Shown: piece after piece, positions 6,803 to 57,880 of the stretch | Numbering within the stretch: the stretch's first letter is position 1 | How the letters are laid out: each line of letters starts with the position of its first letter | Assembly (NCBI RefSeq): GCF_018446385.1 | Contig: NC_056004.1 | Span: forward strand, 6,042,767 to 6,106,766 | Direction of reading: 5' to 3' | From: Zingiber officinale | Lineage: Eukaryota; Streptophyta; Magnoliopsida; Zingiberales; Zingiberaceae | Length of the DNA stretch: 64,000 nt | The notes under the pieces: model-generated | Databases searched by the model: none | The model's input: the letters and a program-made list of their open reading frames with translations, nothing else | What the model was told of the DNA's origin: nothing | Program-made: the position numbers and the translations under genes

Positions 6803-7498
6803 TGTTGGTTGCTACTCGGAAAACCTAGAGGTTCCACTGTACAAAAATTTTGTACAAAGGTCTGAACCTTTTCCTAGCTACCATGTGTTCTTTTAAATTA
6901 AATTTTGGATCGCCTGCGGAACTTAACACGTTTGATCCAAAACTTAATCTATTTGTTCTTTTAGGTTTTGACTTGGATCTCCTACGGAACTTAACACGTT
7001 CGACCCAAGTCTCCTTAAGTTATTAATTCCATTAAATATTAATTTCCATAAAAGGTTCCCAGTACTGATGTGGCGAGGCACATGGCCTTCTTGGATATGG
7101 GAGCAACCACCACCGACTAGACAAAACCTTTAATAGAAAGCTAATATTTAATTTCCTAAAATAACTTTAGGTTAACCAAAGAGAACAATCAAATCACAAG
7201 GAAAAGAAAGAAACAAAAGAACACAACTTCGAAAAAACATATTCGAAATACTAGAACGTAAGCCTCTTGTATTTGGTATTATTTCCATAAATAACTAGCA
7301 TGATGCGGAAATAGAAATTACTAGTTATACCTTGTAGAAAAAACCTCTTGATCTTCTACCGTATTCCTCTTCTAACCTCGGACGTTGTGTGGGCAACGAT
7401 CTTCCAAGATGAGAAACCACCAACCACCTTCTTCTCCTCCAAGCAAGGTTCGGCCACAAAAGAAAAGCTTCACCAAGGAGAAAAACCAAAATACTAAC
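6803..7498 (-). repeat. C1 LTR, 5' copy, left piece
   Basis: Begins TGTTGG next to the primer site and runs to the CTAAC target duplication (7494-7498) of G2. It continues at 18678. Confidence 0.85.
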
Positions 7499-8208
7499 TG
7501 ATCCTGTCCGAATCAGGAGTCAAGGGACGCTGGGCACGTGGCGCTTCCTGCGGAGTCCTCGAATGCTCCGGTGAACCTGCAACAAAACCGAGCCGGGAGG
7601 GGTGTCCCGGCGACGGTCCTCCGACGCTCAAGTCAGGCGAGGAATAACAAAAAGGTGGCTCCCGAATCAAGATTTCGCTTACCTCTGGTGGAGAAATGGA
7701 GGCCTTATATAGACCTCTGGAGGAAACCTGGGTGCTCCAGTCAAAGCAACCACATGCCTTTGACCATGCTCAAGTATGGGTCTGTCAGAAGGGCCATGCC
7801 TGAATCATGGATCTGTCAGGAAGACATCCATGAGAACATACTGTTACTGCGCCAACCTTCCCCTGATGTGACAGCAAGATCTTCCATCGTGCGATTTTGT
7901 GCAAGGCATAATCATCGGACGTGCTCCTACTGATATCCCATAACCCGAGCCGAGCGCATAGGCCGTTCGGCCACCTTTGTACCCTCGCCCCTATCCTAGC
8001 CGAACGGATCACTCGATCGGCCCTTCGGTCCCAGCCGAGCGGACTTCCGCTCGGCCCTTCGATCTTCTTGCCTTGGCGTCGGAAACCCAAGCCCACGGAT
8101 GGGTTATCTCTAGCTCCGCTCGGACCATTACCCTCTTGGCCAGCCTTCCATCCGTCCTTAGGTTGGGACCCTTCAGAAGGTGGGCCCCCCATTCTTACCG
8201 CCGGATCA
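7499..8208 (-). repeat. G2 LTR (3' copy)
   Basis: Starts TGATCCTGTCC and ends CCGGATCA. It matches 17980-18672 except for scattered substitutions and an extra 17 bp near 7554-7575. Open frames inside it on both strands are repeated in the other LTR and are not genes. Confidence 0.9.
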
Positions 8209-8235
8209 CTTGCCTTCCCTTCAAGTCTAGTCGAA
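8209..8235 (-). other. G2 polypurine tract
   Basis: The minus strand reads GAAGGGAAGGCAAG directly before the LTR start TGATCCGG. The same arrangement precedes the G1 LTR at 26513. Confidence 0.75.
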
Positions 8236-8484
8236 GGAGGAAATGAGTCCGACTGACTAGACCATATGTGTCCGAGCGGGCGGTCGCCGTCTTTCTGTAG
8301 CTTATAATATCCATGGGGCCGTTCGGCCCTTCTACCAGATTCAGCCGCTCGGCTCTTTATTTTGGTTGTCTTGTCGTTCCCTGTTGATGTTCACTTGTCT
8401 AGATCTCCTCGAAAATTGTGCAAATCCTCTCCATTAAGTGGGAGCATGCGCGACGTGGGCGCATTAATTGCACTCGGTGACAGA

Positions 8485-8625
8485 GCGCCACGTGTCGATC
8501 TTTGTGTGGCGGCGACGTTACTTACGATGGGATGCGCTCGTTTGAAATGGACGGCCCGATGGCATCCTTGTTTCTCGTAACCTGGATCGGACGGTGGAGG
8601 CTAACCGGCCTCGGCTGTATAAAGC
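8485..8625 (+). promoter_or_regulatory. Promoter of the G2 antisense gene (TATA box, G-box)
   Basis: TATAAA at 8618-8623 lies in CTCGGCTGTATAAAGCCTCC, about 240 bp before the ATG at 8861. A G-box core CACGTG occurs upstream in GCGCCACGTGTCG near 8487-8500. The G1 relative keeps the TATA box (26098-26103, minus strand) at about the same distance from its ATG, but its G-box reads CATGTG. Conservation across two insertions suggests a real promoter; activity is inferred. Confidence 0.65.
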
Positions 8626-8860
8626 CTCCGTCCCTTTCTCGGCCGCACGCTCGCTCGTGCTTCCTCCTTCTGCCTCCTCTGCCTCTGCAGCCTTCGGCGA
8701 TCCAGTCCCACTTTCCGGCTGCTACCTCTTCCCCGGTGATCTTTTCCGCCCGTTTCCTCCTCAGTGAGTCTTCTTCCTTCACTTACTAAGTCTTCCCTGC
8801 TCATTTCGCCCCTTTCGTTTCCCTTCCTTCGCTTTCTTGCTATTCTTTCGCCTCTCCGAG

Positions 8861-11026
8861 ATGGCAAGCTCCTCCGAACCCGCGGTTGGTGTTCAGGGCC
8901 CTTGGTACCTGACCATGGAGAGCCGATTTGATGAGGAGGGTGCTCGGCGCCTGGTTCGGACATATGAGCTTCCTGATGACCACGAAATAATCATAGCCGA
9001 CCCGACCGACCGGCCACATGACCCGCCGACCGGCTCTATTTGTTTCTTTTTAGACCAATTCCAGGGCGGCCTCAGATTTCCTACTCATCCCTTCATTTTG
9101 GAAGTTTGTAACTATTTCCGCATCCCGCTCGGCCAGCTTGTGCCGAATTCCTTTAGGTTGCTGAGCGGGATGGTCGTCCTCTTTAAGTTGCACAGTATCC
9201 CCCTCGACCCTAAGATATTCCATTTCTTCTTCTACCCCAAGCAATCCGAACCGGGCACTTTTATCTTCCAAAGCAGAATAGGCTTTAAATTTTTTGATAA
9301 CATGCCGACCTCCAACAAGCACTGGAAGGAGTTTTTCTTCTATCTTCGACTTCCCGATCGGCCAGCCTTCCGAACCCAATGGCAGACCGCCGTGCCGGCC
9401 CAGCCGGAGCTCGGCAAGTTCAGAAGTAACCCAGCCTATCTTCATGCGGCGAACTGGTTGTCCGGTCAGCGATACAAGATCGACAAATTGCTCTTGCAGG
9501 GGGTGCTATATATTTTCGGATTATCTCCCGTTCGGGCGAATCTTCCCTTCCGCATGAGTAAGGACTCTTTACTCTCTTAGTCTTTTTTGTCTAACTGATT
9601 TTAATTTCTTTCACTGCAGCTGACGTCATGTGGCGATCCAAGGCTACCACTCACTTGAAATTGAAGTCTGTAGAAATTGAATCGGCCACCAAGAAGGAGC
9701 TCGCCGCGCGGGGTTTAATCCCTAGCCGCCCGGCAGGTACAGGAGAGGGAGGGGCACAGTCCGCCCCTGAAACAGAAGCTGCCTCGTCCGATTCTGCGGC
9801 GGTTGAGGCGGAAATCGATCCTGTTTCCTCGGCTCCCGCCGAGCTGGGCGTTCCGCATGTCGAGGATCCCCCATTGGAGGTGCGGCGGAAACGTCGAAGA
9901 GACCCGAACCCTCCGCCGACCCAGGAGGAGGGACCACAGGCGCCGATCGGCGTGACTTCGCCCGACCGCACGCCATCACAGATCGGGACCCCTATGGCGT
10001 CGCCACCGGCACAGCTTTCTGGTTCTCCTCCCCGGACTCGTCGTCGCCTGCGACGGTTCGGCGAAACTTCCACTATAGGGGAGTCTTCGGGCCAGGCTAC
10101 TGCAGCTGCAGAAGCGGCGTCCGGCCATCCGACCATCAAGACCACCCTCCGATTCCCATCGGAGGAATATTTGCTATCCGCCGATCGGCCGTCGAGCCCT
10201 GTCCACGAAATAACCTTGACGGGTCCGCTCGCCAAGCTCTTCGAGGACGCCCAGATTCAGGCGGCCCTCATGACGCCCAAGCAGCTCGGCGATAACAATA
10301 TGCAGCAGGCGACTCAGGTAAACCCATCTTCATTCCCGTGTCATGCTATTGTTTGATTCCTGATTATTATTTCCCTTACAGCGCTGGGCTGAACAAATTG
10401 CCACTAGCCGTCGGCTAGCCGAGTTAGAGGGCCTTCTGGAAAAACTCCAAGTGTCGGAAGGTTCCACGGCCGAGCGGGAGAAACAGGCTCTCGAGGCCGA
10501 ACAGAAGAAGGCTGCCGACCTGGCTGCTGAGGTAGCTCGGCTAGGGGGCTTGGTGAAGAAACGCGATAAAGAGGTGAAGCGCGCCGGTAGCCGTAAGAGG
10601 CAGGCGATCGTTGACCTGGACAGAATGAAAGTGGATGTCCATGCGCTAGGTCAGCGATCCAAGGATCTGGAGGCCCAGCTGAACGCCGAACGGGAGGTCC
10701 GTTCGGCCGAACGCACAAAGGCTGAAGCAAACTTGAAGGCCCTCCAAGATTCCTTAATTGCTTCCCGGGCGCTGCTCAAAAAATACCAGGAGGGAGAGCC
10801 GAGTCGCCTAGCTGCAGCGCGCCAAGAATACATCCGCTCAGAACGATTTGGCGAAAAGTTTGGCGGCAACGTCTCCTCAACCTTCCTCGAGGCAGTCAAG
10901 GTCACCACAGCGTACTTCAAGAAGGGGGGGCATCTTCCTGCTGACCTTAGCATCCCATCTCCCGAACTGACGGCCATGCTCGACGACATCCCGGACACCT
11001 TTTTTAATTTTGAGGATCCGGAGTGA
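8861..11026 (+). CDS. Antisense three-exon gene of G2, putative gypsy-type transposon (PF04195-like) protein
   Basis: Exons are 8861-9557, 9620-10317 and 10382-11026. Both introns are GT-AG (donors GTAAGG and GTAAAC; acceptors CTGCAG and TTACAG), and joining keeps one frame of 680 codons including stop. The ATG at 8861 starts MASSSEP; the upstream in-frame TTG is not a likely start. Residues about 60-215 resemble the 'putative gypsy type transposon' domain (FILEVCNYFRIPLGQLVPNS, then KHWKEFFFYLRLPDRP). The middle is Pro/Ser/Arg-rich and probably disordered. The third exon is a Lys/Glu/Ala-rich coiled coil followed by an acidic end (FFNFEDPE). It runs opposite to gag-pol, between integrase and the 3' LTR, where Grande-like elements are known to carry an antisense ORF. 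Its biochemical role is unknown to me. The G1 copy shares the exon layout, which supports the splicing model. Confidence 0.8.
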
Positions 11027-11344
11027 TGTGTGTTATTTAAGTACTTTTTTGTACTTCCTCCGCTCGGCGGATGTGAACTTTTTGTATGTGCCGTACGGCA
11101 TAATTTTTCTTCTATGGAAACGTTCTCACTCCTTGTCCATGATATTCTCTGGTTTGCTTAACATCAATGCTTGTAAAATTTTCGCCAGCCGTGCTCTTAA
11201 GCTTTCTCCCTCACGCGTCCGATCGGCTCGGCTCGTGTCCCGCTTGCGTGGAGTCAGCAGACGCCGAGTGTCGGAGGACCAACCTCCCTTCGGGCCTGAC
11301 TGTTTTAATATTCATAGTTTCCGTAGTTTCTTACTCTGATATTC

Positions 11345-12345
11345 GTTCCGCTTGTTATATTCATAGCCGGTCGGCGCGGCTCTCGATTTTTAACGACGGT
11401 GCTCGTTGACGCGGTTTTTATAGCCGGTCGGCGCGGCTTTGCGGTTTAACGTCTGGGCTAGACGGCTCGTTCGCGCGGACTATTTATAGGCGCCGGCTCG
11501 TCTCTCGATATTTATCGTCGGAGCTCGACGGCGCGGTTTTTATAGCCGGTCGGCGCGGCTTTGCGGTTTAACGTCTGGGCTAGACGGCTCGTTCGCGCGG
11601 ACTATTTATAGACGCCGGCTCGTCTCTCGATATTTATCGTCGGAGCTCGACGGCGCGGTTTTTATAGCCGGTCGGCGCGGCTTTGCGGTTTAACGTCTGG
11701 GCTAGGCGGCGCGGACTATTTATGAGGCCGGCTCGTCTCGATATTTATCGTCGGGCTCGGAGCGGTTTTATAAGCGGTCGGTGCGGCTTTGCGGTTTAAC
11801 GTCTGGGCTAGACGGCTCGTTCGCGCGTATTTATAGACGGCGGCTCGTCTCTCGATATTTATCGTCGGAGCTCGACGGCGGTTTTATAGCCGGTCGGCGC
11901 GGCTCTGCGGTTTAACGTCTGGGCTAGACGGCTCGCTCGGACTATATATAGACGCCGGCTCGTCTCTCGATATTTATCGTCGGAGCTCGACGGCGCGGTT
12001 TTTATAGCCGGTCGGCGCGGCTTTGCGGTTTTACCGCTGGGCTAGGCCGCTTGTTCGCGCGGACTCTTTATAGACGCCGGGTCGTCTCTGGATATTTATC
12101 GTCGGAGCTCGGTAGCGGTTTTATGATCGGTAGCGGCTCTCGATTTTACGGCGGTGCTCGTCGGTAGCGGTTTTATAGCCGGTCGGTAGCGGCTCGATTT
12201 TGCAGCGGTGCTCGTCGGTGCGTCCGCTCGGATTATTTATAGACGCCGGCTCGTCTCTCGATATTTATCGTCGGAGCTCGACGGCGCGGTTTTTATAGCC
12301 GGTCGGCGCGGCTCTCGATTTTTAACGACGGTGCTCGTCTGTCTC
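11345..12345 (-). repeat. 122-bp tandem repeat array of G2
   Basis: The motif GCGGTTTTTATAGCC recurs at 11411, 11533 and 11655, exactly 122 bp apart, and then continues with deletions to about 12340 (roughly 7-8 units). Each unit is two related halves of about 60 bp. Read on the element strand, each unit carries a TATA-like word (CTATAAAAA). The same family in the same relative place forms the array in G1. No coding frame runs through it. Confidence 0.85.
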
Positions 12346-12787
12346 CAAGTGAGACTATATACCCGGCCGAACGGCTCGGTTCTTCACATCGAGCGCTGGG
12401 CTCAGATACCATATACCCGGCCGAACGACTCGGGCCTTCACATCGAGCGCTTGGCTCGCATATAACCCCCTTCGAGGTAGTCTCGGCTATAATGTACCTG
12501 GTCGAGCGGCTCAGGCCTTCGCTCCTAGGCAATAACCTCCCTCTATCATCCTGATCAGCGCAGGGTTTTGGTTTCTCATCCTGCCATAATAGTATGCAGC
12601 CCGGCCGAACGGCTCGGGGTCTTCGTGTTTGAGCCTGTGGCTCGGATATAAACCTCCCGTCCGAACGGCTCGGGGGCCTTCGGCTCTTAATGATCAAGCC
12701 TTATTTTTGCTCTTCTGACTTTCCATTTTTGCATTTTCAGTAATCGGTCGGAAAATGTACACGTGGTGATTTACAGTGATACCCCAT
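12346..12787. other. Spacer between repeat array and pol of G2
   Basis: Holds several short imperfect repeats of the type CGGCCGAACGGCTCGG(G)...TTC. It has no gene that I can support. Confidence 0.5.
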
Positions 12788-15700
12788 TCACCCCGCCCTA
12801 TAAGGCTGGAGGTGGTTCGCGCTCCACGGCCTATCTAGCTGCCGACCGTCTTCATCCTCCAGATAATATGCGCCCGAACGGAGCTTTTCGATGATTTTGA
12901 AAGGACCTGCCCATGGAGCTTCCAGCTTACCGACGTCGCCAACCGGCTTGACCTTCTTCCAGACAAGATCGCCGACTTGGAATGATCTGGGAATGACGCG
13001 TCGGTTGTAGTTCTGTTTCATCCGCTGACGATATGCCATCAGCCGGACGGACGCCTTTGCCCTCTCCTCTTCGACCATATCTAGCTCCATATTTCTCCGC
13101 TCGGCATTGCCTTCATCATAGCACTGGATCCGAGCGGACTCGACGCCGACTTCAACCGGAATGACGGCCTCACCTCCGTATACCAAATGGAACGGGGTGA
13201 CTCCTGTCCCTTCTTTTGGCGTCGTCCGGATGGCCCACAAGACGCTTGGCACTTCATCTGGCCAACTCCCTCCCACATGGTCGAGCCGAGCGCGCAGAAT
13301 ACGAAGAATTTCCCGGTTGGCGACTTCAGCTTGGCCATTGCTCTGAGGATAGGCCACGGATGTGAAATGTTGCTCAATGCCGTAGCTATTGCACCAATCT
13401 TCTAACATCTTCCCTGTGAACTGCCGCCCGTTGTCGGACACTAGTCGGCGAGGGATGCCGAACCGACAAATGATGTGTTGCCAGATGAATTTTTTCACCA
13501 TTTGTTCAGTAATCTTTGCGAGCGGCTCGGCCTCCACCCACTTGGAGAAGTAATCTACCGCCACTAGTAAAAATTTCCTTTGCCCGGTCGCCATCGGAAA
13601 TGGACCTACAATATCCATTCCCCACTGATCGAACGGGCATGAGATGGTTGATGCCTTCATCTCCTCTGCCGGTCGGTGGGAGAAGTTGTGATACTTCTGA
13701 CATGAAAGGCAGGTAGATACTGTCCGAGCGGCGTCTGCTTGTAATGTTGGCCAAAAGTACCCGGCCAAAAGGATCTTCTTGGCCAACGAGCGTCCTCCCG
13801 GATGACCGCCGCATGATCCTTGGTGTACTTCCTGAAGGATGTACGCTGAGTCCTCTGAGCTTACACATTTCAACAAAGGGCGCGAGAAAGCTTTCTTGTA
13901 CAGCTGATCTCCAATGAGTGTAAACCGCCCGGCCCTTCTCCTGAGCAGCTGGGCTTCGTCCCGGTCGGCAGGTATTTTTCCCGATTGGAGGAACTCTATG
14001 ATGGATGTCTTCCAGTCGCTTGGAAATGAGAGGCCTTCCATCCGATCGACGTGCGCCACCAGTAGTACTCTTTCGATTGGTTGTTGAACGACGATCGGCG
14101 TTATAGAACTTGCTAGTTTGGCCAACTCATCGGCTGCCTGGTTCTCCGTTCGGGGAATCTTCTGGATAAGGACCTCTCGGAAAGTGGCTTTGAGTTTTTC
14201 AAAGGCTTCAGCGTAGAGCTTAAGCCGAACGCTATTGATTTCAAAGGTACCAGAAAGTTGTTGAGCGGCCAACTGTGAATCGGAATAGAGTGTCACCCGA
14301 CCGGCTCCCACATGCCGTGCTGCCTGTAATTCGGCTATAATGGCCTCATACTCTGCTTCATTGTTGGTGGCCTTGTAGTCCAGCCGGACGGATAGGTGCA
14401 TCTTTTCTTCTTGCGGTGAGATAAGCAATATCCCTATCCCACTTCCGAGCCGAGTGGAAGACCCATCCACATATATCCTCCACAGAGCTTCCAGTTCTGG
14501 CCTCTGCACTTCGGTCACAAAATCAGCCAAGGATTGGGCTTTAATCGCCGAGCGGGGCTGGTACTGGATGTCAAACTCGCTTAATTCTGTCGTCCACTTG
14601 ATAAGCCGTCCGGACGCTTCTGGATTCAACAGGACTCTCCCGAGTGGACTGTTCGTCCGGACAATGATTGTGTGAGCCAAGAAATACGGTCGAAGGCGCC
14701 GAGCGGCTAGAACCAAAGCAAAGGCCAACTTCTCGAGCCCGGTGTAGCGAGATTCAGCATCTTTCAAAATATGGCTCAGAAAATACACCGGCTGCTCTTC
14801 GCCGCTCGCCCTCACAAGTACTGAGCCTACCGCATGCTCAGTTGACGACAGATACATATACAGTGACTCACCCCCGATCGACTTGGCCAGCACAGGCAGG
14901 GAATTTAGATATGTCTTCAACTCCTCAAATACTCGGTCACACTCCTCATCCCACTGGAACTTAGTAGCCTTGCGCAGGATCTTGAAGAATGGAAGGCTCC
15001 GGTCGGCGGTTCTGGAGATGAACCTGGATAAGGCAATTATCCGACCGGTCAACCTTTGCACTTCTCTTGTATTTCTTGGGGGCGGCATGTCTTGCAGTGC
15101 TTTCACCTTGTTGGGATTTGCTTCGATTCCCCGCTCGGTCACTATATACCCCAAGAAACGCCCTCCTTTAGCTCCGAACAAGCACTTCTGGGGATTTAGC
15201 TTGACTCCATATTTGCGCAGTGTTCGGAAGGTTTCTTCCATATCCTTGAAAAGATCGGCCGCTCGGACGGATTTGATAAGAATGTCGTCCACGTAAACTT
15301 CCAGATTCCGCCCGATCTGCTCCTTGAATACCTTGTTCATCAAGCGTTGATAGGTGGCCCCGGCATTCTTCAATCCGAACGGCATCACATTGTAGCAGTA
15401 TGTGCCGTCGGCCGTTACGAAGCTCACTTTTTCTTGATCTTCCCGGGCGAGCGGCACTTGATGATATCCTTGGTAGGCGTCAAGCATGCAAATTAATTCG
15501 CAGCCTGCCGTAGAGTCCACCAGCTGATCTATCCGGGGCAGAGGATAAAAATCCTTGGGGCACGCTTTGTTCAAGTCTCGAAAGTCGATACAGACCCTCC
15601 ACTTGCCACCCGGCTTGGAGACCAAGACTACGTTGGCCAACCAGCTCGGGAACTGCACCTCGCGTATGTGGCCTGCCTTCAGAAGTTTTTCCACTTCCGC

Positions 15701-16843
15701 CCGGATTATGGCATTCTGCTCGGCGCTAAAATCTCTTTTTTTCTGCTTCACTGGCCGAGCGTCCGGTCGGACATGTAACTCATGCTGCGTCAGGCTCGGC
15801 AAAATTCCGGGCAACTCATGTGTCGACCAGACAAAGACATCATGATTTCGCTGAAGGCATTGGATCAGCCTCTCCTTCTGTTTTTCCTCCAGATCTGAGG
15901 CGATGAAAGTGGTGGCCTCCGATCGGGTCGGATGGATCTGAACTTCCTCCTTTTCATCATAAATTAAAGCAGGAGGTTTCTCGGTTATGGCGTGTACCTC
16001 GATTCGGGGGGCCTTCCGAGCGGAAGAAGCTTCTGCTCGGATCATCTCTATATAACATCGCCGAGCTGCTAGCTGATCTCCACGCACTTCTCCTACTTTG
16101 TCTTCCACGGGGAACTTTATCTTTTGGTGGAAGGTTGAAACAACCGCTCGGAATTCGCCGAGCGCCGGTCGTCCCAAAATGACATTGTAGGATGATGGGG
16201 AGTCTACCACCACGAAATTTATTGTTCTGGTCCTCCGGAGCGGCTCTTCTCCCAGCGAGGCAGCTAGCCGGATCTGTCCGACCGGCTGAACTTCGTTGCC
16301 CGTAAACCCGTAGAGCGGGGTCGTCATGGGCAGCAGCTCGGCTCGATCGATTTGTAGTTGATCGAATGCCTTCTTGAAGATGATGTTGACTGAGCTCCCT
16401 GTGTCAACAAATATGCGGTGAATGGTATAATTTGCTATTACCGCTTTAATGAGTAGTGCGTCGTCGTGGGGCACTTCTACCCCTTCTAAGTCTCCGGGCC
16501 CAAAAGTAATTTCCGGTCCACTCGCCCGCTCTTGGCTACAGCCGACCGCATGGATCTGCAGCTGCCGGACGGCCGCCTTTCTCGCTCGGTTGGAGTCTCC
16601 TCCGGTCGGCCCGCCAGCAATGACGCTGATCTCGCCCCGGGCAGTATTGCTCCGGTTTTCCTCCTCCCGAGTGGACGGTCGGGACCGCTCCCTCGACGCC
16701 CGGCGATTCTCCTGTCTTCGGGATCGGTGCCGATCGGGCGTTTGGTGATGTTGCCTCTCGGTGCGGGTCCGGTCAGCTCCATGGGTCCTTTGTCTTCTAT
16801 CGACGGGAGGAGACCGTCGTTCGACTTTCCTGGAACGGGTTAG
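12788..16843 (-). CDS. Pol polyprotein of G2 (protease, RT, RNase H, archaeal-type RNase H, integrase)
   Basis: One frame is open from just after a TGA at 16844-16846 to the stop at 12788; a GTG at 16474 is only a convenient start. Upstream of it the frame carries the Tat-typical EISVIAGGPTGGDSN. From 16474, approximate residue positions are: protease VDTGSS near 25, RT YVDD near 395, RT-linked RNase H near 520-640, a second RNase H (YVDGSS, TNNEAEYEA) near 668-790, the integrase zinc region (GGHPGG ... CLSCQKYH) near 893-930, and catalytic D, D, E in WGMDIVG, SDNGRQF and the segment QAEVANRE near 951, 1012 and 1048. It ends at a conserved C-terminal PWSANHLQPYRAG. The protein would copy the element RNA and insert the DNA. 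The frame is intact here but cut off from gag by a stop and a frameshift. Confidence 0.9.
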   Translation of the reverse strand, partial: LTRSRKVERRSPPVDRRQRTHGADRTRTERQHHQTPDRHRSRRQENRRASRERSRPSTREEENRSNTARGEISVIAGGPTGGDSNRARKAAVRQLQIHAVGCSQERASGPEITFGPGDLEGVEVPHDDALLIKAVIANYTIHRIFVDTGSSVNIIFKKAFDQLQIDRAELLPMTTPLYGFTGNEVQPVGQIRLAASLGEEPLRRTRTINFVVVDSPSSYNVILGRPALGEFRAVVSTFHQKIKFPVEDKVGEVRGDQLAARRCYIEMIRAEASSARKAPRIEVHAITEKPPALIYDEKEEVQIHPTRSEATTFIASDLEEKQKERLIQCLQRNHDVFVWSTHELPGILPSLTQHELHVRPDARPVKQKKRDFSAEQNAIIRAEVEKLLKAGHIREVQFPSWLANVVLVSKPGGKWRVCIDFRDLNKACPKDFYPLPRIDQLVDSTAGCELICMLDAYQGYHQVPLAREDQEKVSFVTADGTYCYNVMPFGLKNAGATYQRLMNKVFKEQIGRNLEVYVDDILIKSVRAADLFKDMEETFRTLRKYGVKLNPQKCLFGAKGGRFLGYIVTERGIEANPNKVKALQDMPPPRNTREVQRLTGRIIALSRFISRTADRSLPFFKILRKATKFQWDEECDRVFEELKTYLNSLPVLAKSIGGESLYMYLSSTEHAVGSVLVRASGEEQPVYFLSHILKDAESRYTGLEKLAFALVLAARRLRPYFLAHTIIVRTNSPLGRVLLNPEASGRLIKWTTELSEFDIQYQPRSAIKAQSLADFVTEVQRPELEALWRIYVDGSSTRLGSGIGILLISPQEEKMHLSVRLDYKATNNEAEYEAIIAELQAARHVGAGRVTLYSDSQLAAQQLSGTFEINSVRLKLYAEAFEKLKATFREVLIQKIPRTENQAADELAKLASSITPIVVQQPIERVLLVAHVDRMEGLSFPSDWKTSIIEFLQSGKIPADRDEAQLLRRRAGRFTLIGDQLYKKAFSRPLLKCVSSEDSAYILQEVHQGSCGGHPGGRSLAKKILLAGYFWPTLQADAARTVSTCLSCQKYHNFSHRPAEEMKASTISCPFDQWGMDIVGPFPMATGQRKFLLVAVDYFSKWVEAEPLAKITEQMVKKFIWQHIICRFGIPRRLVSDNGRQFTGKMLEDWCNSYGIEQHFTSVAYPQSNGQAEVANREILRILRARLDHVGGSWPDEVPSVLWAIRTTPKEGTGVTPFHLVYGGEAVIPVEVGVESARIQCYDEGNAERRNMELDMVEEERAKASVRLMAYRQRMKQNYNRRVIPRSFQVGDLVWKKVKPVGDVGKLEAPWAGPFKIIEKLRSGAYYLEDEDGRQLDRPWSANHLQPYRAG

Positions 16844-17934
16844 TCACGAAGGGAGACTTCGACAATCCCTCGTGTTGTGCGTATCCGACTGGTGGAAGGA
16901 GCAACATAGGGGTCCACCTCTTCTTTGGCTTGGGCGAGCGGCAGCCACTTCTTGTACGTGCGATCGGTATGGGAGGATCGAATTGCTTCAGCCCTCGGTC
17001 CTCTGGGTGGTTGCTGAGCGGCGTGCGGCTTCCACTCGGCATGAACAGGTGCACGTTCGGTTGGAGCTTCCTTTTTCCGAGCTGCTTGAGCTTCTTCCAC
17101 GTTTATGTATTCGTTGGCCCGGTGCAGCATGTGATCATAGTCTCGGGGCGGCTTTCGGATGAGTGACCGGAAGAAGTCCCCATCCACAAGGCCTTGCGTG
17201 AAGGCGTTCATCATCGTCTCCGATGTGGCCGTTGGGATATCCATTGCCACTTGGTTGAATCGCTGGATGTAAGCTCGGAGCGACTCTTTTGGTCCTTGCT
17301 TGATGGCGAACAAGCTAACACTTGTTTTCTGATACCGCCGACTGCTAGCAAAGTGGTGGAGGAAGGCCGTTCGGAAATCCTTGAAGCTTGTGATAGATCC
17401 GTCCGGCAACCTCCGGAACCACCGTTGAGCCGATCCCGATAGAGTGGTAAGGAAGACGCGACACTTCACTCCGTCGGTGTATTGATGGAGTGTGGCTGTG
17501 TTGTCAAACTTACCCAAATGATCATCCGGGTCCGTTGTTCCATTATACTCGCCGATCGTAGGGGGCACGTAGTGCTTGGGCAGAGGATCTCGCAGAATGA
17601 CCTCCGAAAATTGGCGGTTGGTCCGCTCGGGAGATGAGTCCGTCCGGGGGGCTTTCCCTTTTCTGTCATCCCGCCTTGGCATTTCGTCTGAAGAGGAGCC
17701 TCTATCTCTTCGAGCTGGTGCTGCTTCAGGGGTGCGAAATAAGGCTCGATGGAATGCGACGGTGGCTTGAGGTGCTTCCGCTCGGCCACCGGACGCAGAT
17801 GTCGCTTGTTGTTCCGGCCGCTCGGCTGTTGCTTTTTGTCTTTGCTCCACTAGTTTGGCAGCCCTCATCTCGACCAGAGCTTCGAGTTCTTCGGTTGAAA
17901 GCGTCACCGCGTGTTGTCGTCCAGCCTCATCCAT
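16840..17934 (-). CDS. Gag protein of G2, frameshifted near its zinc knuckle
   Basis: A 364-codon frame starts at ATG 17934, about 45 bp inside the LTR. It contains a retrotransposon Gag core at about residues 125-270 (KFDNTATLHQYTDG, WFRRLPDGSITSFKDFRTAF, GPKESLRAYIQRFNQVA), the part that forms the particle shell. The C-terminal end is abnormal. Around 16901-16905 the frame slips, so a Cys/His knuckle-like stretch (C..H ... H....C) appears in the pol frame rather than in gag, and a TGA at 16844-16846 then separates it from pol. These breaks suggest this copy cannot make a normal gag-pol by itself. The break position is my estimate by eye. Confidence 0.85.
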   Translation of the reverse strand: MDEAGRQHAVTLSTEELEALVEMRAAKLVEQRQKATAERPEQQATSASGGRAEAPQATVAFHRALFRTPEAAPARRDRGSSSDEMPRRDDRKGKAPRTDSSPERTNRQFSEVILRDPLPKHYVPPTIGEYNGTTDPDDHLGKFDNTATLHQYTDGVKCRVFLTTLSGSAQRWFRRLPDGSITSFKDFRTAFLHHFASSRRYQKTSVSLFAIKQGPKESLRAYIQRFNQVAMDIPTATSETMMNAFTQGLVDGDFFRSLIRKPPRDYDHMLHRANEYINVEEAQAARKKEAPTERAPVHAEWKPHAAQQPPRGPRAEAIRSSHTDRTYKKWLPLAQAKEEVDPYVAPSTSRIRTTRGIVEVSLRD

Positions 17935-17957
17935 TGCTTCCGATCGGATGCAGGAGC

Positions 17958-17978
17958 GTTCCCACAGACGGCGCCAAT
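17958..17978 (-). other. G2 primer binding site
   Basis: The minus strand reads TGGCGCCGTCTGTGGGAACG just inside the LTR boundary at 17980. This is the TGGCGCC-type primer site typical of Tat-group gypsy elements. Confidence 0.8.
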
Positions 17979-17979
17979 T

Positions 17980-18672
17980 TGATCCTGTCCGAATCAGGAG
18001 TCAAGGGACGCTGGGCACGTGGCGCTTCCTGCGGACGAATCTGCAACAAAACCGAGCCGGGAGGGGTGTCCCGGCGACGGTCCTCCGACGCTCAAGTCAG
18101 GCGAGGAATAACAAAAAGGTGGCTCCCGAATCAAGATTTCGCTTACCTCTGGTGGAGAAATGGAGGCCTTATATAGACCTCTGGAGGAAACCTGGGTGCT
18201 CCAGTCAAAGCAACCACATGCCTTTGACCATGCTCAAGTATGGGTCTGTCAGAAGGGCCTTGCCTGAATCATGGATCTGTCAGGAAGACGTCCATGAGAA
18301 CATACTGTTACTGCGCCAACCTTCCCCTGATGTGACAGCAAGATCTTCCATCGTGCGATTTTGTGCAAGGCATAATCATCGGACGTGCTCCTGCTGATAT
18401 CCCATAACCCGAGCCGAGCGCATAGGCCGTTCGGCCACCTTTGTACCCTCGCCCCTATCCTAGCCGAACGGATCACTCGATCGGCCCTTCGGTCCCAGCC
18501 GAGCGGACTTCCGCTCGGCCCTTCGATCTTCTTGCCTTGGCGTCGGAAACCCAAGCCCACGGATGGGTTATCTCTAGCTCCGCTCGGACCATTACCCTCT
18601 TGGCCAGCCTTCCATCCATCCTTAGGTTGGGACCCTTCAGAAGGTGGGCCCCCCATTCTTACCGCCGGATCA
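17980..18672 (-). repeat. G2 LTR (5' copy) with TATA box
   Basis: Matches 7499-8208. On the minus strand CTATATAAGG lies at about 18169-18178, the likely element promoter, upstream of the primer site. It is followed on the + strand by the CTAAC duplication (18673-18677). Confidence 0.9.
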
Positions 18673-18677
18673 CTAAC

Positions 18678-20391
18678 CAAGCTCCAAGAGATGCTAGCTT
18701 TCTCTCCTTCTTCTTCTTCTTCTCCGAGTAGTATCCGGCCACCACAAGAACTCCAAGGGAGAGGGAGAGGTTCGGCCACCACAAGAGGAAGAGAAGGAGA
18801 TGATGGCCGGCCACACCAAGGAACAAAAGAGGGAGAGGAATAATAGATGTTGTATCTTGTGAAGGCACTCTCACCCCTTCTTTTATATTCCTTGGCCTAG
18901 GCAAATTAGGAAATTTAATTACAATAAAATTTCCTTAATTTCCTTGACATGATTTAATTGAGAAAAATTAAATAAAATTTCCCAATTTAATCTCTAATGG
19001 CCGGCCACTTCTAGAGGAAATAAATTAGACAAGTTTTAATCAACAAATTAAAACTTCCTAATTTATTTCCGGAAATTTTAAAAATAAAATTTCTCTTTAA
19101 AAATCTCTTCATGGTTGATAAAGGAAATTTCTATAATTTTAATTTTATCAACATGTGGATAATTTTTAAAGAGAAAATAAAATAACTCATCAATCTACAA
19201 ATAAGGAAAGAGATCTAATCTCTTTCTTTAATCTTTTGTAGATCTTTTACAAGAGAGATATTTTAATTTTAATTCTCTTTAAAAAATTATTTCTTCCACA
19301 TAATAAAAACTAAAATTAAAATCCCTTTTTAATTTAATTTGGCTGGCCCCACTAGCTTGGGTTCAAGCTAGGGCCGGCCACCCAATAATATACCTAGGCC
19401 GGCCCTAGCTTGGTTCCCAAGCTAGCTTGGCCGACCCCTTATTAGTGGGTATAGAAGGTGGGTATAGGTGGGTATAAAACTTCTACAAATAAGAGGCTAC
19501 GATAGGGACGAGAGGAGGAATTGGTTTTGGTCTCCCGATAAAATTACATCCCGTGTTCGCCCCGAACACAACTTAATTTTATCAATGATAATTCATTCCA
19601 CTAGAGAATTATCATTGAACTACCACCAATCCCAAATTACATTTTGGGCTCCTTCTTATTATGAGTGTGTTAGTCTCCTGTGTTTAAGATATCAAATGTC
19701 CACTAATTAAGTGAGTTACTGACAACTCATTTAATTAATATCTAAATCCAAGAGTAGTACCACTCAACCTTATTATCATGTCGGACTAAGTCCACCTGCA
19801 GGGTTTAACATGACAATCTTTATGAGCTCCTCTTGAGGACATTATCAACCTAGTATCTCTAGGACACAGTTTCCTTCTATAATCAACAACACACACTATA
19901 AGTGATATCATTTCCCAACTTATCGAGTTTATTGATTCAACGAACTAAATCTCACCCATTGATAAATTAAAGAAATAAATATCAAATATATGTGCTTGTT
20001 ATTACATTAGGATTAAGAGCACACACTTCCATAATAACCGAGGTCTTTATTTCTTTATAAAGTCAGTATAAAAGAAACGACCTCAAATGGTCCTACTCAA
20101 TACACTCTGAGTGTACTAGTGTAATTATATAGTCAAGATAAACTAATACCTAATTACACTACGACCTTCCAATGGTTTGTTCCTTTCCATCATGGTCGTG
20201 AGCTACTGTTTATAATTTATAAGCTACTGATAACATGATCTTCTGTGTGTGACACCACACACCATGTCATCTACAATATAAATTAATTGAACAACTACAT
20301 TTATCATAAATGTAGATATTCGACCAATGTGATTCTTTTTTCTAGATAAATGTTTATACCAAAAGCTAGGCTTTGAGTATACACTCCAACA
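18678..20391 (-). repeat. C1 LTR, 5' copy, right piece
   Basis: Continues the LTR sequence interrupted at 7498; it matches 555-2260 closely. It ends CCAACA at 20391, where G1 integrase coding sequence resumes without a gap. No gene lies within it. Confidence 0.85.
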
Positions 20392-22160: not shown

Positions 22161-23325
22161 AGACATTAAACCGTAGAGCCGCGCCGATCGGCTATAAATA
22201 TCCGCGCCGTCGAGCTCCGACGTTAAAGATCGAGAGACGAGCCGGCGTCTATAAACGTCCGAGCGGAAGGTCGACGAGCCCCGTCGTTAAAGATCGAGAG
22301 CCGCGCCGATCGGCTATAAATATCCGCGCCGTCGAGCTCCGACGTTAAAGATCGAGAGACGAGCCGGCGTCTATAAACGTCCGAGCGGAAGGTCGACGAG
22401 CCCCGTTTTTAAAGATCGAGAGCCGCGCCGACCGGCTATAAATACCCGCGCCGTCGAGCTCCGACGTTAAAGATCGAGAGACGAGCCGGCGTCTATAAAC
22501 GTCCGAGCGGAAGATCGACGAGCCCCGTCGTTAAAGATCGAGAGCCGCGCCGATCGGCTATAAATATCCGCGCCGTCGAGCTCCGACGTTAAAGATCGAG
22601 AGACGAGCCGGCGTCTATAAACGTCCGAGCGGAAGATCAACGAGCCCCGTCGTTAAAGATCGAGAGCCGCACCGATCGGCTATAAATATCCGCACCGTCG
22701 AGCTCCGACGTTAAAGAACGAGAGACGAGCCGGCGTCTATAAACGTCCGAGCGGAAGATCGACGAGCCCCGTCGTTAAAGATCGAGAGCCGCGCCGATTG
22801 GCTATAAATATCCGCGCCGTCAAGCTCCGACGTTAAAGATCGAGGCGAGGCGGCGTCTATAAGCGTCCGGCGGAAGGTCAACGAGCCCGTCGTTAAAGAT
22901 CGAGAGCCCCGATAGGCTATAAATATCCGCGCCGTCGAGCTCCGACGTTAAAGATCGAGAGACGAGCCGGCGTCTATAAACGTCCGAGCGGAAGGTCGAC
23001 GAGCCCCGTCGTTAAAGATCGAGAGCCGCGCCGACCGGCTATAAATATCCGCGCCGTCGAGCTCCGACGTTAAAGATCGAGAGACGAGCCGGCGTCTATA
23101 AACGTCCGAGCGGAAGGTCGACGAGCCCCGTCGTTAAAGATCGAGAGCCGCGCCGACCGGCTATAAATATCCGCGCCGTCGAGCTCCGACGTTAAAGATC
23201 GAGAGACGAGCCGGCGTCTATAAACGTCCGAGCGGAAGGCCGACGAGCCCCGTCGTTAAAGATCGGGAGCCGCGCCGATCGGCTATAAATACCCGCGCCG
23301 ACGAGCTCCGTCGTTAAAGATCGAG
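22160..23325 (+). repeat. 122-bp tandem repeat array of G1
   Basis: GCGCCG(A/G)(T/C)CGGCTATAAATA recurs at 22181, 22303 and 22425 and onward, exactly 122 bp apart, for about 9-10 units. Each unit is a 58 + 64 bp dimer; both halves begin GTTAAAGATCGAGAG. The first half carries CTATAAATA and the second CTATAAACG. Units are more uniform than in G2. It lies between pol and the 3' end of the antisense gene. Confidence 0.9.
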
Positions 23326-23699: not shown

Positions 23700-25858
23700 T
23701 CACTCCGGGTCCTCAAAATTAAAAAAGGCGTCCGGGATATCATCTATCATGGCCGCCAGGTCAGAGGCGGGAATGTGCATTCCCGTGGGAAGGTGGCCAC
23801 CCTTCTTCAAGTACGCCATGGTGACCTTGACCGCCTCGGCGGAAGTTGAGGAAACGTTGCCGCCGAATTTTGCGCCGAACCGTTCCGAGCGGAGGTATTC
23901 TTGGCGCGCTGCTGCTAGGCGACTCGACTCTCCCTCCTTATATTGTCTGAGCGCCGCCCGGGAGGCAATCAGTGAATCTTGAAGAACTTTCTGGTCCACC
24001 TCCGCTTTGGTGCGTTCAGCAGAGCGCTCATCCCGTTCGGCAGCCAGTTGTGCCTCCAGCTTTTTAGATTGCTGATCTAGGGCTCGGACTTCAACTTTCA
24101 TCTTATCCAGATCAGCAATCGCCCGCCTCTTCCGGCTACTGGCACGCTTCACGTCCCCGTCGCGCTTCTTCACTAAGTCTTCGAGTCGGGCCACCTCTGT
24201 AGCCAGGTCGGCGACCTTCTTCTGTTCGGCCTCGAGGGCTTGTTTCTCCCGCTCGGCCGAAGGACCTCCCGACACTTGGAGTTTTTCCAGGAGATCCTCC
24301 AGCTCGGCTAGCCGATGGCTAGTGGCGATTTGCTCAGCCCAACGCTATAAGGGAAATAATAAAATCAGGAGTCAAATGATAGCATGGCACGGGAAGAAAA
24401 ATGAACGTACCTGAGTGGCCTGCTGCATGTTGTTATCGCCGAGCTACTTGGGCATCATGAGGGCCACCTGAATCTGGGCGTCCTCGAAGAGCTTGGTGAG
24501 TGGACCCGTCAGGGTTATTTCATGAACGAGGCTTGATGGCCGATCGGTAGATAATAAATATTCCTCTGAAGGAAATCGGAGGGTCGTCTTGATGGTCGGG
24601 TGGCCGGCCGGCCCTTTCTCGGCCGCAGTCGCCTGGCCCGAGGACTCCCCTATGGTTGAAGTCTCGCCCAACCGTCGTAAGCGACGACGAGTCCGCGGAG
24701 GAGAGCCAGAGTGCTGTGCGATGGGCGAGGCCACGGGGGTCCCGATCTGCGACTCCGTGCGATCGGGCGAGGCAATCTCGATCGGCGCCCGTGGTTCGCC
24801 CTCTTTGGTCGGCGGAAGGCTGGAGTCTCTTCGACGTTTCCGCCGAACTCCCGGTGGTGAATCCCCGGTCTGGGGGATTCCCAGCTCGGCTGGAGCAGAA
24901 GAAACAGGATCCGCCTCGACCTCCGTTGAAGCGGCTTGGGCAACTTCTGTTTCAGGGGCGGACTGCGCCCCCCCTCTCCTGCATCTGCCGGGCGGCTGGG
25001 GATGAGACCCCGCTCGGCGAGTTCTTTTTTGGTGGCCGCCTCAATTTCCACGGCCTTCAATTTCAGATGATCGGTAGCCTTGGAGCGCCACATGACTTCA
25101 GCTGCAGTGGAAGAAATTAAAATCAGTTAGACAAAAAGGTGAAAGAAGTAAAGAGTCCTTACCCATGCGGTAGGGGAGGTTGGCCTGAGCGGAGATAATC
25201 CAAAAATGTACAACACCCCCTTGAGAAGCAACTGGTCGATTTTGTACCGTTGACCGGACAACCAGTTTGCCGCATGAAGGTAGGCTGGACTGCTTCTGAA
25301 TTTGCCGAGCTCTGGCTGGGTCGGCACAGCGGTCTGTCATTTGGTTCTAAATGCTGGCCGCTCGGGAAGTCGTATATAGAAGAAGAACTCCTTCCAGTGC
25401 TTGTTGGAGGTCGGCATATTATCAAAAAATTTGAAGCCTATTCTACTTTGGAAAATAAAAGTGCCCAACTCGGATTGTTTGGGGTAGAAGAAATAGTGGA
25501 ATATCTTGGGGTCGAGTGGGATACTGTGCAGCTTAAAGAGGACGACCACCCCGCTCAGCAGCCTAAAGGAATTCGGCACAAGTTGGCCGAGCGGGATGCG
25601 GAAATAATTACAAACTTCTAAAATAAAGGGATGGGTAGGAAATCTAAGGCCGCCCTGGAATTGGTCTAGAAAAAAACAAACGGTGCCGATCGGAGGGTCA
25701 TGGGGCCGGTCGGTCGGGTCGGCTATAACTATTTCATGGTCATCAGGAATCCCGTACGTCCGAACAAGGCGCCGAGCGCCCTCTTCATCAAATCGACTCT
25801 CCATGGTCAGATACCAAGGGCCATGAACATCAACAGCGGGTTCGGAGGAGCTTGCCAT
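23700..25858 (-). pseudogene. Antisense gene of G1, decayed copy of the G2 gene
   Basis: Exons on the minus strand are 25858-25163, 25101-24411 and 24344-23700. All four splice sites are kept at the positions seen in G2 (donors GTAAGG and GTACGT; acceptors CTGCAG and TTATAG). The third exon is 645 nt, exactly as in G2, and fully open. Exon 1 has a TGA near 25337 where G2 has Trp (TGG) and is 1 nt shorter; exon 2 is 7 nt shorter, shifting the frame after GEGG. N-terminal residues such as FILEVCNYFRIPLGQLVPNS match G2. The gene is therefore inactive as a full-length protein, but it shows that the exon structure predates the split of the two copies. Confidence 0.8.
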
Positions 25859-31843: not shown

Positions 31844-33408
31844 CATGTCTTAATTAGAAGGCTTTAGCACAGTACGTCCTCCCCTATTCAACGGGGACGA
31901 CTTTTCATACTGGAAGAAAAGAATGGAGGTTTACCTGAAGACAGACTACGACTAGTGGTTCAGCGTCATAAAAGCCTACAGACCTCCAGTCGACAACTCC
32001 GGAAATCCACTAGACCCGGAACAGTGGACTCCGGACATGAGGAAAAAGGCATCGACTGAGAACAAAGCAATTAACACGCTACACTGCGGTCTAACACGAG
32101 AAGAACTGAACCGGGTCGGACCACATCAGAACGCGAAGGAGCTTTGGGACAAATTGATCGAGCTGCACGAAGGAACGAGCGACGCGAAGGTAACAAAAAG
32201 AGACTTACTTTTAAATAGAATTTTTAATATAAAAATGCAGGAAGGAGAAACGGCAAGTCAGCTCCACGCGAGGATCAAGGACATCCTCAACGGACTCCAC
32301 GCGATAGGCCACCAGATGGAAAACAGAGACTTAATAAGGTACGCACCAAATGCTTTTCCACGTAATAGTTTGTGGGCATCGATCGTAGATGCGTACAAAA
32401 TTTCCAAAAATTTATCTAAATTAAAGTTAGACGATCTTTTTTGTGAGTTAGAACTACATGAACAAACTAATACTAGACCCGAGAAAGGTGTTGCTTTATT
32501 TGCAGGCTCCTCCAAAGAAAAGAAGAGAAAACCTGAATCTGAAGAAGATTCCGACCAAGATTCCGAAGACGAAGAATACCTGGTGAACTTGGTAAGAAAA
32601 ATGTTCACCAGGAGAAAAAGGAGCTTCAGCAAGAAGGATCTTCAAAAGATCAGTTCTCCCACGGAACAAAAGAAAGTGACCTGCTTCGGATGTAACAAGA
32701 AGGGGCACTACAAGAACGAGTGCCCGAGACTAAAGAACGACAAACCGAAGCCGACCAAAAAGAAGGCTCTCAAAGCGACGTGGGATGACTCCTCCTCGGA
32801 CGAATCGGAGGTAGAAGATCAGAAGCACCAGAGCCACCTCGCGCTGATGGCCCGCGAAGCTGAATCGGAAGACGGGTCCGAACCCGAATCGAGCCACGAG
32901 TCCGTACTCATTTCCGAAGGCCCGGAAGAGGTATATTTCGATTTAAACAAATTTTTTTAAAATTATTTCTTGCTTAAATAATAAATTAGTTAAAATAGAA
33001 AATGAAAACAAATCACTCCTTGAGGAAAATCAAGACCTCAAGGAACAAATCAAAAATTCAAATCCAACTCAAGATCTAACACTTGAGGAGGAGAATTTAT
33101 CATTAAAAAATGATATTAACAATTTAAAAGAGATGTTAGAAAAATTCACTATAAGATCAAAAAATCTAGACTTAATCCTGAATAATCAAAAGGCGTGTTA
33201 TAATAAAACCGGACTCGGATATAAGTCGAACTCAAATAAAACCTTTAAATCATTAATAACCCAATTCAAACTAACACGTAAAGCTTGGGTCCCGAAAGTG
33301 TGCTTAACCACGCAAGTAGGACTTAATCAACTTTACATACCTAAAGATAAAATATATTATATAAAATCTGATAAAGAAAATCAAAAATCAAAATACAAAC
33401 TTAAATAA
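31844..33408 (+). pseudogene. S1 gag with early stops
   Basis: Translation from the ATG near 31844 meets a stop at codon 3 and another after KTDYD, then stays open to 32960 (about 307 codons). Visible parts are LFNGDDFSYWKKRMEVYL near the start (Copia gag core), an acidic stretch EEDSDQDSEDEEYL, and a CCHC knuckle CFGCNKKGHYKNEC at about 32680-32725. An Asp/Ser-rich tail follows. After the stop at 32960, another frame holds a Glu/Lys/Asn-rich coiled-coil region (near 33000-33140), typical of SIRE gag C-termini. It would have been the particle protein. Confidence 0.75.
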
Positions 33409-44609: not shown

Positions 44610-44720
44610 CGCCATAAGAGCGTTCAGAAATTCACAATTCGTTCCCTTCCTCGATTCTTTCGACAGTTCGTTCTAATATACTCTCCTGGCTCTTCGGCTC
44701 TGTTTCAATTCAGATCTGAG

Positions 44721-45932
44721 ATGGGCTGTAGCATCAGCAGTAGGTCTTACACGCCCCCGATCCTCGCAGGCGGTGCCGTGGTCGGACATGTAACCGGTTC
44801 TCCGGCCGCAAGTTCCTTCGTTAGCTCCTACGAGGCAGCGTGCATGCTCGACCCGGAGCTCCAGAGCTTCGACGCCACGCTGCGGCAGCGTACGAGTCGT
44901 GTCCTATCCACCCTCGCCATGGACGGCGAGGTCCCTTCCCTGTCACTCGATAACCTGCGAGCCGCCACCGCCGACCTCCTGGAGATGAACCAGGAGGCGC
45001 ACCTATTCATCCTGAAGAACAAGAAGGACATCCTGAAGAACGCCGACCTCTTGGACTTCGTCAAGGACTACCTCGACAATTGCCTGCTGACCATACACTT
45101 CTGCGACACCCTCAAGAACTGCCTCGGTAAAGCCTCCGAAAGCCAATCGATCATCCGCTTCGCCCTCCAGCGCTTCACCGAAGATGATGCGCGAGAAGCA
45201 GATCAAGGTGGCAAGCAGAAATACGCGAGGACTTTGGACGAATTGCGTCGATTTATGTCGGCGGGCAATCCGATCACCAAAGAGTTCTCCTATCCATTCT
45301 TCCGAACACTTCACAGGCAGCAAGTAACGATGCTGGAGAAGCTCCGCTCGAGAAGGGAGAAGCTCGATAAGAAGTTGAAGACCTTGACAACGTGGAGGAG
45401 AGTATCCAATATCCTATTCGCGTCAGTCTTCGCAGCTGCAATAATTTGCTCGATTGTACTTGCGGTGGCCGCCCCGCCGACGGCGGCCGCGGCTGTAGGG
45501 GCGGCCGCCGCCATGCCGATCCCGATGGGCAACTGGATCGACTCCCTGCTAAAAGAATACCAGAAATCCTTGGAAGGGGATGAAGAGATTGTGAATTCCA
45601 TAGAGTGCGGCAGCGTTGCGATGGACATGGATGGCATTCCGTCGCAGGTGGGGAGGTTGGAGATGCATATCAAATCTATGTTGGAGTATGCCGATTTCGC
45701 GCTTAGAGACGAGGAAGCCGTGAGATTCGAGATGGAGGAGATCAGGGAAAAGTCGAAGGAGTTTGCGGAGGGATTGCGAGAATTGGCGAAGCAAGCAGAA
45801 AGATGCAGCAGGAATATTCAAAAGGCCCAGACGGATCTTCTGCTGCTGATAAATCGGCATCCAAGACGCGCGTCAACGTCATCAAAATCCGACCGGAGGT
45901 CCAGACGGCAAATCTATCGGTCCAGTAGTTGA
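44721..45932 (+). CDS. UPF0496 (DUF677) family protein, copy 1
   Basis: A single exon of 403 codons. The N-terminus MGCSIS fits an N-myristoylation signal (Gly2, Ser6) with Cys3 available for acylation, suggesting membrane attachment. The DUF677 body includes DLLEMNQEAHLFILKNKKDI, SQSIIRFALQRF, KYARTLDELRRF and NPITKEFSYPFFRTLHRQQ. One or two hydrophobic segments follow at about residues 229-270 (ILFASVFAAAIICSIVLAVAA, then Ala-rich). The C-terminal third has coiled-coil character (RLEMHIKSMLEYADFALRDEE). Members of this plant family (At14a-like) are reported at the plasma membrane; no enzymatic activity is known. A second copy is at 57881. The GC-rich codon use contrasts with AT-rich flanks. 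Confidence 0.88.
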   Translation: MGCSISSRSYTPPILAGGAVVGHVTGSPAASSFVSSYEAACMLDPELQSFDATLRQRTSRVLSTLAMDGEVPSLSLDNLRAATADLLEMNQEAHLFILKNKKDILKNADLLDFVKDYLDNCLLTIHFCDTLKNCLGKASESQSIIRFALQRFTEDDAREADQGGKQKYARTLDELRRFMSAGNPITKEFSYPFFRTLHRQQVTMLEKLRSRREKLDKKLKTLTTWRRVSNILFASVFAAAIICSIVLAVAAPPTAAAAVGAAAAMPIPMGNWIDSLLKEYQKSLEGDEEIVNSIECGSVAMDMDGIPSQVGRLEMHIKSMLEYADFALRDEEAVRFEMEEIREKSKEFAEGLRELAKQAERCSRNIQKAQTDLLLLINRHPRRASTSSKSDRRSRRQIYRSSS

Positions 45933-57780: not shown

Positions 57781-57823
57781 TTAAATGCCTTTGACTCGGC
57801 GTAGTATCAGCCCGCCCGCCCCC

Positions 57824-57830
57824 TATAAAA
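57824..57830 (+). promoter_or_regulatory. TATA box of the second UPF0496 gene
   Basis: TATAAAA in CCCCCTATAAAATCGG, 57 bp before the ATG at 57881. It favours that ATG over the in-frame one at 57785, which lies upstream of the TATA box. Confidence 0.55.
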
Positions 57831-57880
57831 TCGGCAAATCGGCTTGTTTTATTTCCGATCTCAACTCTAGAGGGCGCAGT

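Follow-up and report, generated by a model that had tools for sequence, protein, structure and literature searches.

The window, as we term the whole 64,000-nucleotide stretch of ginger (Zingiber officinale) DNA analysed here, contains a Ty3/gypsy retrotransposon bounded by long terminal repeats (LTRs) and a target-site duplication and, on the strand opposite its gag-pol, a gene in which an ATG opens three joined exons of 679 codons and a TGA (Table 1). Coordinates, strand, start and stop agree with those of the first-pass annotation, which had described three exons, two GT-AG introns and a frame of 680 codons without an internal stop (679 amino acids plus TGA). Its label of 'gypsy' for the element is likewise borne out by gag, a protease match below the cut-off, reverse transcriptase (RT), RNase H, a second RNase H and integrase, all on the minus strand, with RT, RNase H and integrase in gypsy order. 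In the Ogre and Retand branches of Tat, RNase H and integrase are described as flanking a second RNase H (PMC6317226); here, PF13456 and PF00075 sit between PF17917 and the integrase domains. Antisense open reading frames (ORFs) with the TRP28 domain (PF04195) are described as a mark of Retand-lineage elements (Vicient 2025, PMC11963269), and in the ginger element TRP28 is likewise encoded in antisense, in the interval from pol to the 3' LTR, where the antisense gene and an array of 122-nt repeats lie. On its domain order, second RNase H and antisense TRP28 region, the element is probably a Tat/Retand-type Ty3/gypsy retrotransposon.

Table 1. Positions of the retrotransposon, its antisense gene and associated features (window coordinates unless stated otherwise)
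Feature	Position	Strand	Remarks
Ty3/gypsy element carrying the antisense gene	7499-18672	-	11.2 kb; strand is that of gag-pol
3' LTR	7499-8208	-	TGATCC...GGATCA ends
5' LTR	17980-18672	-	97.05% identity to 3' LTR across a 712-column match
Target-site duplication	7494-7498; 18673-18677		CTAAC, 5 bp
gag ORF	16840-18000	-	PF03732
pol ORF	12788-16843	-	Protease-like (below cut-off), RT, RNase H, second RNase H (PF13456), integrase
Tandem array, period 122	11372-12111		Between pol and antisense gene
G-box, CACGTG	8489-8494	+	129 nt before TATA box; 19/20 copies including window copy
TATA box, TATAAA	8618-8623	+	243 nt before ATG, 410 nt from LTR end; 19/20 copies including window copy
Exon 1	8861-9557	+	697 nt; TRP28/PF04195 region and conserved remainder of N-terminal part
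PF04195 Transposase_28 (TRP28) match	9038-9235	+	Residues 60-125
Intron 1	9558-9619	+	62 nt, phase 1, GTAAG...CTGCAG
Exon 2	9620-10317	+	698 nt; S/P/T-rich linker with two basic clusters
Basic cluster RRKRRR	9883-9900	+	Residues 321-326; possible nuclear signal
Basic cluster RTRRRLRR	10033-10056	+	Residues 371-378; possible nuclear signal
Intron 2	10318-10381	+	64 nt, phase 0, GTAAAC...TTACAG
Exon 3	10382-11026	+	645 nt including TGA; long helix/coiled coil (predicted) and conserved C-terminal tail
Predicted continuous helix (coiled coil)	10385-10792	+
Related antisense-gene copy in truncated second element (G3)	23700-25858	-	Open frames interrupted
Upstream coiled-coil gene end, distant family (loci L002, L004, L006, L007, L008, L047, L048)	First ~600 bases of locus, in gene orientation

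The surroundings are rich in repeats. The element is nested in an outer LTR element, with LTRs at 1-554 and 6945-7498 that are 99.3% identical, and its insertion point lies approximately at the junction between LTR and internal region of this outer element, of which a segment (549-2260) recurs at 18672-20391 with 97.7% identity, suggesting a tandem or recombined array. Arrays of period 122 occur in both the 11.2-kb element and the truncated G3 (the latter at 22175-23325), the period being kept though the units are only about 70-84% alike. The idea that palindromes in this repeat serve as binding sites for the antisense protein was dropped: CGATATTTATCG occurs six times in the array next to the gene and three times in one close copy, and is absent from G3 and from four other copies examined. 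Elsewhere in the window, a dense array of direct repeats, with spacings mostly of ~33 nt or fractions of 33 nt, runs from 34056 to at least 35044, downstream of an ORF (31956-32960) that appears gag-like by eye. Two similar ORFs at 44610-45932 (440 aa) and 57785-58963 (392 aa), in DNA repeats 83-90% identical and 13.1 kb apart, are likely to represent a gene duplication.

Splice sites and reading frame among related copies

An open frame does not by itself fix the gene model, since 18 GT/AG combinations keep the frame open within the stretches searched around both splice sites. The introns chosen have GTAAG and GTAAA donors and pyrimidine-rich CAG acceptors that are kept in other copies; they are rich in T (48% in intron 1 and 42% in intron 2, against 17-27% in the exons), and both contain in-frame stops when read through in the window copy. 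Intron 2 of one subfamily has 66 nt and, in the three copies read, no stop, so that its retention would keep the frame there too, which counts against splicing, as does the shortness of both introns in the window copy. Further upstream, in the 5' leader, a candidate donor for a 5'-UTR intron, GTGAGT (8764), recurs in 17 of 20 copies; an AG adjoining the ATG, with its end 97 nt past that GTGAGT, is kept in 18 of 20 copies in a poor acceptor context.

The window copy was compared with 48 others, comprising the 29 best exon-3 matches (from which L009, the window copy itself, was excluded), 18 hand-picked among the 150 matches listed, and G3; some may be alleles if the assembly holds both haplotypes. 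As copies were chosen by their match to exon 3, that exon is biased towards intact copies, leaving exons 1 and 2 and the introns unselected. Intron 2 retains GT-AG in all 48 and intron 1 its GT in all 48, with a complete GT-AG in 41; each of the seven lacking it has at least 18 small exon deletions. A fully open frame was found in 6 of the 33 copies with the start in view, a count that speaks against a working gene but may be too low. The assembly is probably the ginger genome built from nanopore (ONT) reads (PMC8342452), and in the two deletion-rich copies inspected the small deletions are dense and sharp-edged, as is likely to result from uncorrected nanopore error, which makes counts of frameshifts and broken genes in this assembly unreliable. 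Assembly error explains part of the broken frames, and frameshift counts were set aside as a sign of decay. Many small deletions spread over hundreds of bases were seen in L025-L027, L029, L031, L033, L035, L045, L046, L051 and L058. Copies with long uninterrupted frames (as much as 475 aa around exon 3, and 826 aa at L047) were considered as cases of intron loss, a reading that was rejected, the introns there being present but open.

Selection on the coding frame was measured between the window copy and representatives of four other subfamilies, the groups being set by hand and differing slightly between the splice-site count and the frame test. Whole-gene dN/dS is 0.132-0.157 (95% limits 0.095-0.217), with exon 1 the most constrained (0.083-0.117), against 0.147-0.225 in exon 2 and 0.161-0.195 in exon 3; in windows along the gene it drops to 0.03-0.05 in the TRP28 region and immediately ahead of intron 2, and rises to 0.34 in the linker. 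For pol, dN/dS is 0.044 (over a 414-codon stretch common to both window elements); the antisense gene is thus under constraint, if weaker than that on pol. The strongest test of the gene is the position of the switches in constrained frame, which coincide exactly with the two introns: in all four comparisons, exons 1 and 3 are constrained in f0 and exon 2 in f2, the pattern expected from splicing, with dN/dS of 1.11-4.98 in the other forward frames. A comparison of dN/dS and splice sites across copies had been proposed in the first-pass annotation, and values of 0.13-0.16 with splice sites kept are the opposite of what it had named as evidence against a gene.

The introns themselves appear constrained. 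Sites outside the splice motifs change less than four-fold degenerate sites, a contrast that may partly reflect methylated-cytosine mutation in the GC-richer exons, which was only roughly controlled: at A/T sites, Fisher p ranges from 3e-5 to 0.002 in five single comparisons, and transversions number 0/77 intron against 23/326 four-fold sites in one comparison and 2/76 against 35/292 in the most distant, so that 0-2 transversions among 76-77 intron sites stand against 7-12% of four-fold sites. This constraint is clearer for intron 1 and among near subfamilies and weakens with distance, intron 2 differing in 43/216 (20%) and 30/108 (28%) of site comparisons in two subfamilies.

The three exons, read antisense to gag-pol, have evolved together as one protein-coding gene, on which purifying selection has acted in the amplifying lineages. 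That this is a real protein-coding gene we regard as practically certain, and splicing of its transcript as drawn in Table 1 as very probable from the conserved sites and the switch of frame. Such constraint means that copies making a functional product left more descendants, from which it follows that the product helps the element.

Promoter-like region, protein and a distant family

Both the TATA box and the G-box lie outside the LTR, in the stretch that separates the 3' LTR from the ATG; the TATA box upholds the earlier proposal that the gene is preceded by one of its own. The spacing between the two is 125-131 nt in the 18 copies that have both, and that between TATA box and ATG varies over 209-255 nt; the 12-nt window beginning at TATAAA is the best kept upstream segment, at 96% (19 copies against the window copy). 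Together with the introns, these motifs strongly indicate, at the level of sequence, transcription by RNA polymerase II from an internal promoter and removal of two short introns.

The PF04195 profile search advised in the first-pass annotation, which had likened the first part of the protein to the 'putative gypsy type transposon' domain, gave a score above the curated cut-off of 26.2 (35.5 bits, E 1.2e-8, for the whole protein and 38 bits for exon 1). Conservation spans all of exon 1, though the domain covers residues 60-125 only. Profile and PDB sequence searches with exon 1 found no known fold or enzyme domain, two weak PDB matches (E 0.12 and 0.23) not being used, and one scan of viral contigs found no relative. 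The AlphaFold2 model of exon 1 from two sequences had a pLDDT of 35, and therefore shows no DNA-binding fold. Of the two basic clusters of the linker, RTRRRLRR is the better conserved (7/8 positions invariant in 12 aligned sequences); RRKRRR, with 4/6 invariant in the same alignment, does no better than the surrounding residues 256-400 (62%).

For the end of the protein, a long coiled coil had been proposed. In favour, AlphaFold2 modelled exon 3 as a single 136-residue helix (two sequences; pLDDT of at least 90 at 76/214 residues), and a hydrophobic period of 3.50 runs over residues 466-615, matched in strength by 57 of 2000 shuffles; residues 541-615 taken alone lack such a period (826 of 2000 shuffles). 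A coiled coil in exon 3 is likely, with moderate support.

Beyond these copies, a distant family was sampled as ten loci chosen by their best PF04195 scores (69 positions), with donors and acceptors sought by set motifs near the expected place. Exon 1 shares 35-39% identity with the window gene in the four loci aligned and measures 687-694 nt from the ATG (697 in the window copy), in phase 1 in seven of ten loci; the frame breaks before the donor in three, and only two loci have an exon 1 free of stops from the ATG onward. Intron 1 follows the same codon in all ten, with a GT donor, one base carried over, a CAG acceptor and a length of 83-87 nt, and intron 2 was found at the same place, in phase 0 by local reading, in both loci that reach that far (L047 and L048). 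Since the introns are common to both families, they predate the split between them. Exon 1 is again constrained, with dN/dS of 0.08-0.19 at a high dS of 0.56-1.40 (eight comparisons with one reference locus, leaving out L006, one of the nine other loci). The sequence ATAAATA occurs 114-144 nt before the ATG in all ten loci, within TATAAA in eight, and no CACGTG was found within 500 nt before the ATG in any of the ten. Just upstream of the TRP28 gene, in the same orientation, seven of the ten loci hold the end of a further coiled-coil gene, and its C-terminal region (L047) matches that of the TRP28 gene (L048) and of the window protein, a match that none of 2000 shuffles equalled in any of three comparisons. 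Some elements may, on this similarity, carry two paralogous antisense genes.

Role of the product and alternative explanations

We propose that the gene is a functional accessory gene of its retrotransposon, which would be transcribed from DNA copies under its own promoter, with G-box and TATA box, and then spliced. In the genomic RNA, the introns of this antisense gene appear as CT...AC, would not be spliced out and so survive each cycle of retrotransposition; for the same reason, the protein would be made only from the DNA copy and independently of the 5' LTR. The 679-residue product, with its TRP28 region, S/P-rich linker with basic clusters, coiled coil and conserved tail, would be a nuclear dimer or oligomer that acts in trans on DNA of the element itself, be it in transcription and silencing or in the pre-integration complex. 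A nuclear location is fairly probable, and a nuclear, dimerising accessory regulator is, by analogy and on balance, the explanation we favour as a whole. Action on the element's own transcription or silencing is a tentative suggestion, a little short of probable, and action on nuclear entry or integration would be rather unlikely.

A low dN/dS could in principle be cast by a coding frame on the gag-pol strand, and the mirror frame is indeed low, at 0.18-0.34. It is nonetheless weaker than the forward frame in each exon in four of four comparisons, and a continuous opposite frame is refuted by at least one stop in each frame of each exon in all seven open copies examined, in which the forward frame has only its terminal stop; the mirror signal would be accounted for if third codon positions coincide between the strands, and we give a coding frame on the gag-pol strand a negligible probability. 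That the antisense transcript, rather than a protein, is what matters, by pairing with genomic RNA and feeding siRNA silencing or limiting copy number, would suit a gene located within the sense genomic RNA, and retrotransposon antisense transcripts can form dsRNA and act in silencing (PMC7264820; PMC12786077). A pure RNA role, however, predicts no codon-level constraint, against the dN/dS found and a constrained frame that switches at the introns, which makes it quite improbable; RNA and protein roles could exist side by side.

Introns and an own promoter are features of host genes, and transduction is known for other elements (PMC7264820), so that the gene might be a captured host gene without a lasting role in the element's cycle. 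Constraint in two families with common introns argues against this, and Vicient reports no TRP28 similarity outside transposable elements (PMC11963269); the presence of the gene in all compared copies is no argument against capture, because the copies were found by the antisense gene itself. We consider such a passenger very unlikely, and an ancient capture of a host gene a possible origin. The long predicted coiled coil, and an exon 1 in which searches found no known fold or enzyme domain, would also fit a structural component of the particle or a chaperone, a role that is unlikely given that Grande's antisense product is reported to be nuclear (PMC7264820) and that the gene has a separate antisense promoter region and one conserved basic cluster.

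HBZ of HTLV-1 is an antisense, spliced gene with a nuclear, coiled-coil product, and the ginger gene, likewise antisense and read from the 3' end, is likened to it by description and not by sequence. VANC proteins of VANDAL DNA transposons are element-encoded anti-silencing proteins that act on the silencing of their own element; VANC is a DNA-transposon protein that is not known to contain TRP28, and serves as a model of action only, that of an element-encoded accessory protein. Antisense genes of retroviruses are mentioned in PMC7264820 and PMC11963269; the HTLV antisense promoter lies in the 3' LTR (PMC7264820), whereas here the promoter-like region is outside it. Closer to home, the antisense product of Grande is reported to have a nuclear location and its own promoter (PMC7264820), and gene23 of Grande (Gomez-Orte et al. 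2013) resembles the ginger gene as an antisense accessory gene of the 3' internal region with own promoter and nuclear product, a likeness drawn by description only, via the review PMC7264820. In Vicient's survey a TRP28 ORF was present in 97% of clusters, and nearly every recently active Retand element is reported to carry such an ORF (PMC11963269). The ginger gene shares with them its antisense orientation, its place between pol and the 3' LTR, PF04195 and the tandem repeats often found in the region; it differs in that the survey (PMC11963269) lists ORFs, mainly of at least 600 bp, whereas here the ORFs are exons of one gene with two conserved introns and measured selection.

In the main text of that survey, 'intron' and 'Zingiber' do not occur and 'splic' occurs twice, both times in one reference title (PMC11963269). 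Among the titles and abstracts of the literature searched, none concerned introns in antisense TRP28 genes; as the original paper on Grande gene23 was outside that scope, priority is not claimed. Antisense TRP28 ORFs were already known, and the new part is that an accessory gene of a known kind is here a conserved three-exon gene. A wider, speculative and somewhat doubtful extension would hold that Retand antisense TRP28 genes are ancestrally three-exon, with a phase-1 and a phase-0 intron that predate the divergence of families only ~37% identical, and were kept as true pol II genes, in some families as two in tandem with a common coiled-coil tail; their products would be trans-acting nuclear regulators, made from DNA copies only and opposing silencing, and the antisense orientation would have let the introns persist.

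A review of 2020 calls for the study of antisense and spliced transcripts (PMC7264820), for which the exon structure provides exact junctions for RNA mapping and a full-length protein to express, the three-exon model joining what ORF scans cut into pieces. In this lineage, introns have been kept within a retroelement, apparently because the gene that holds them runs against the genomic RNA.
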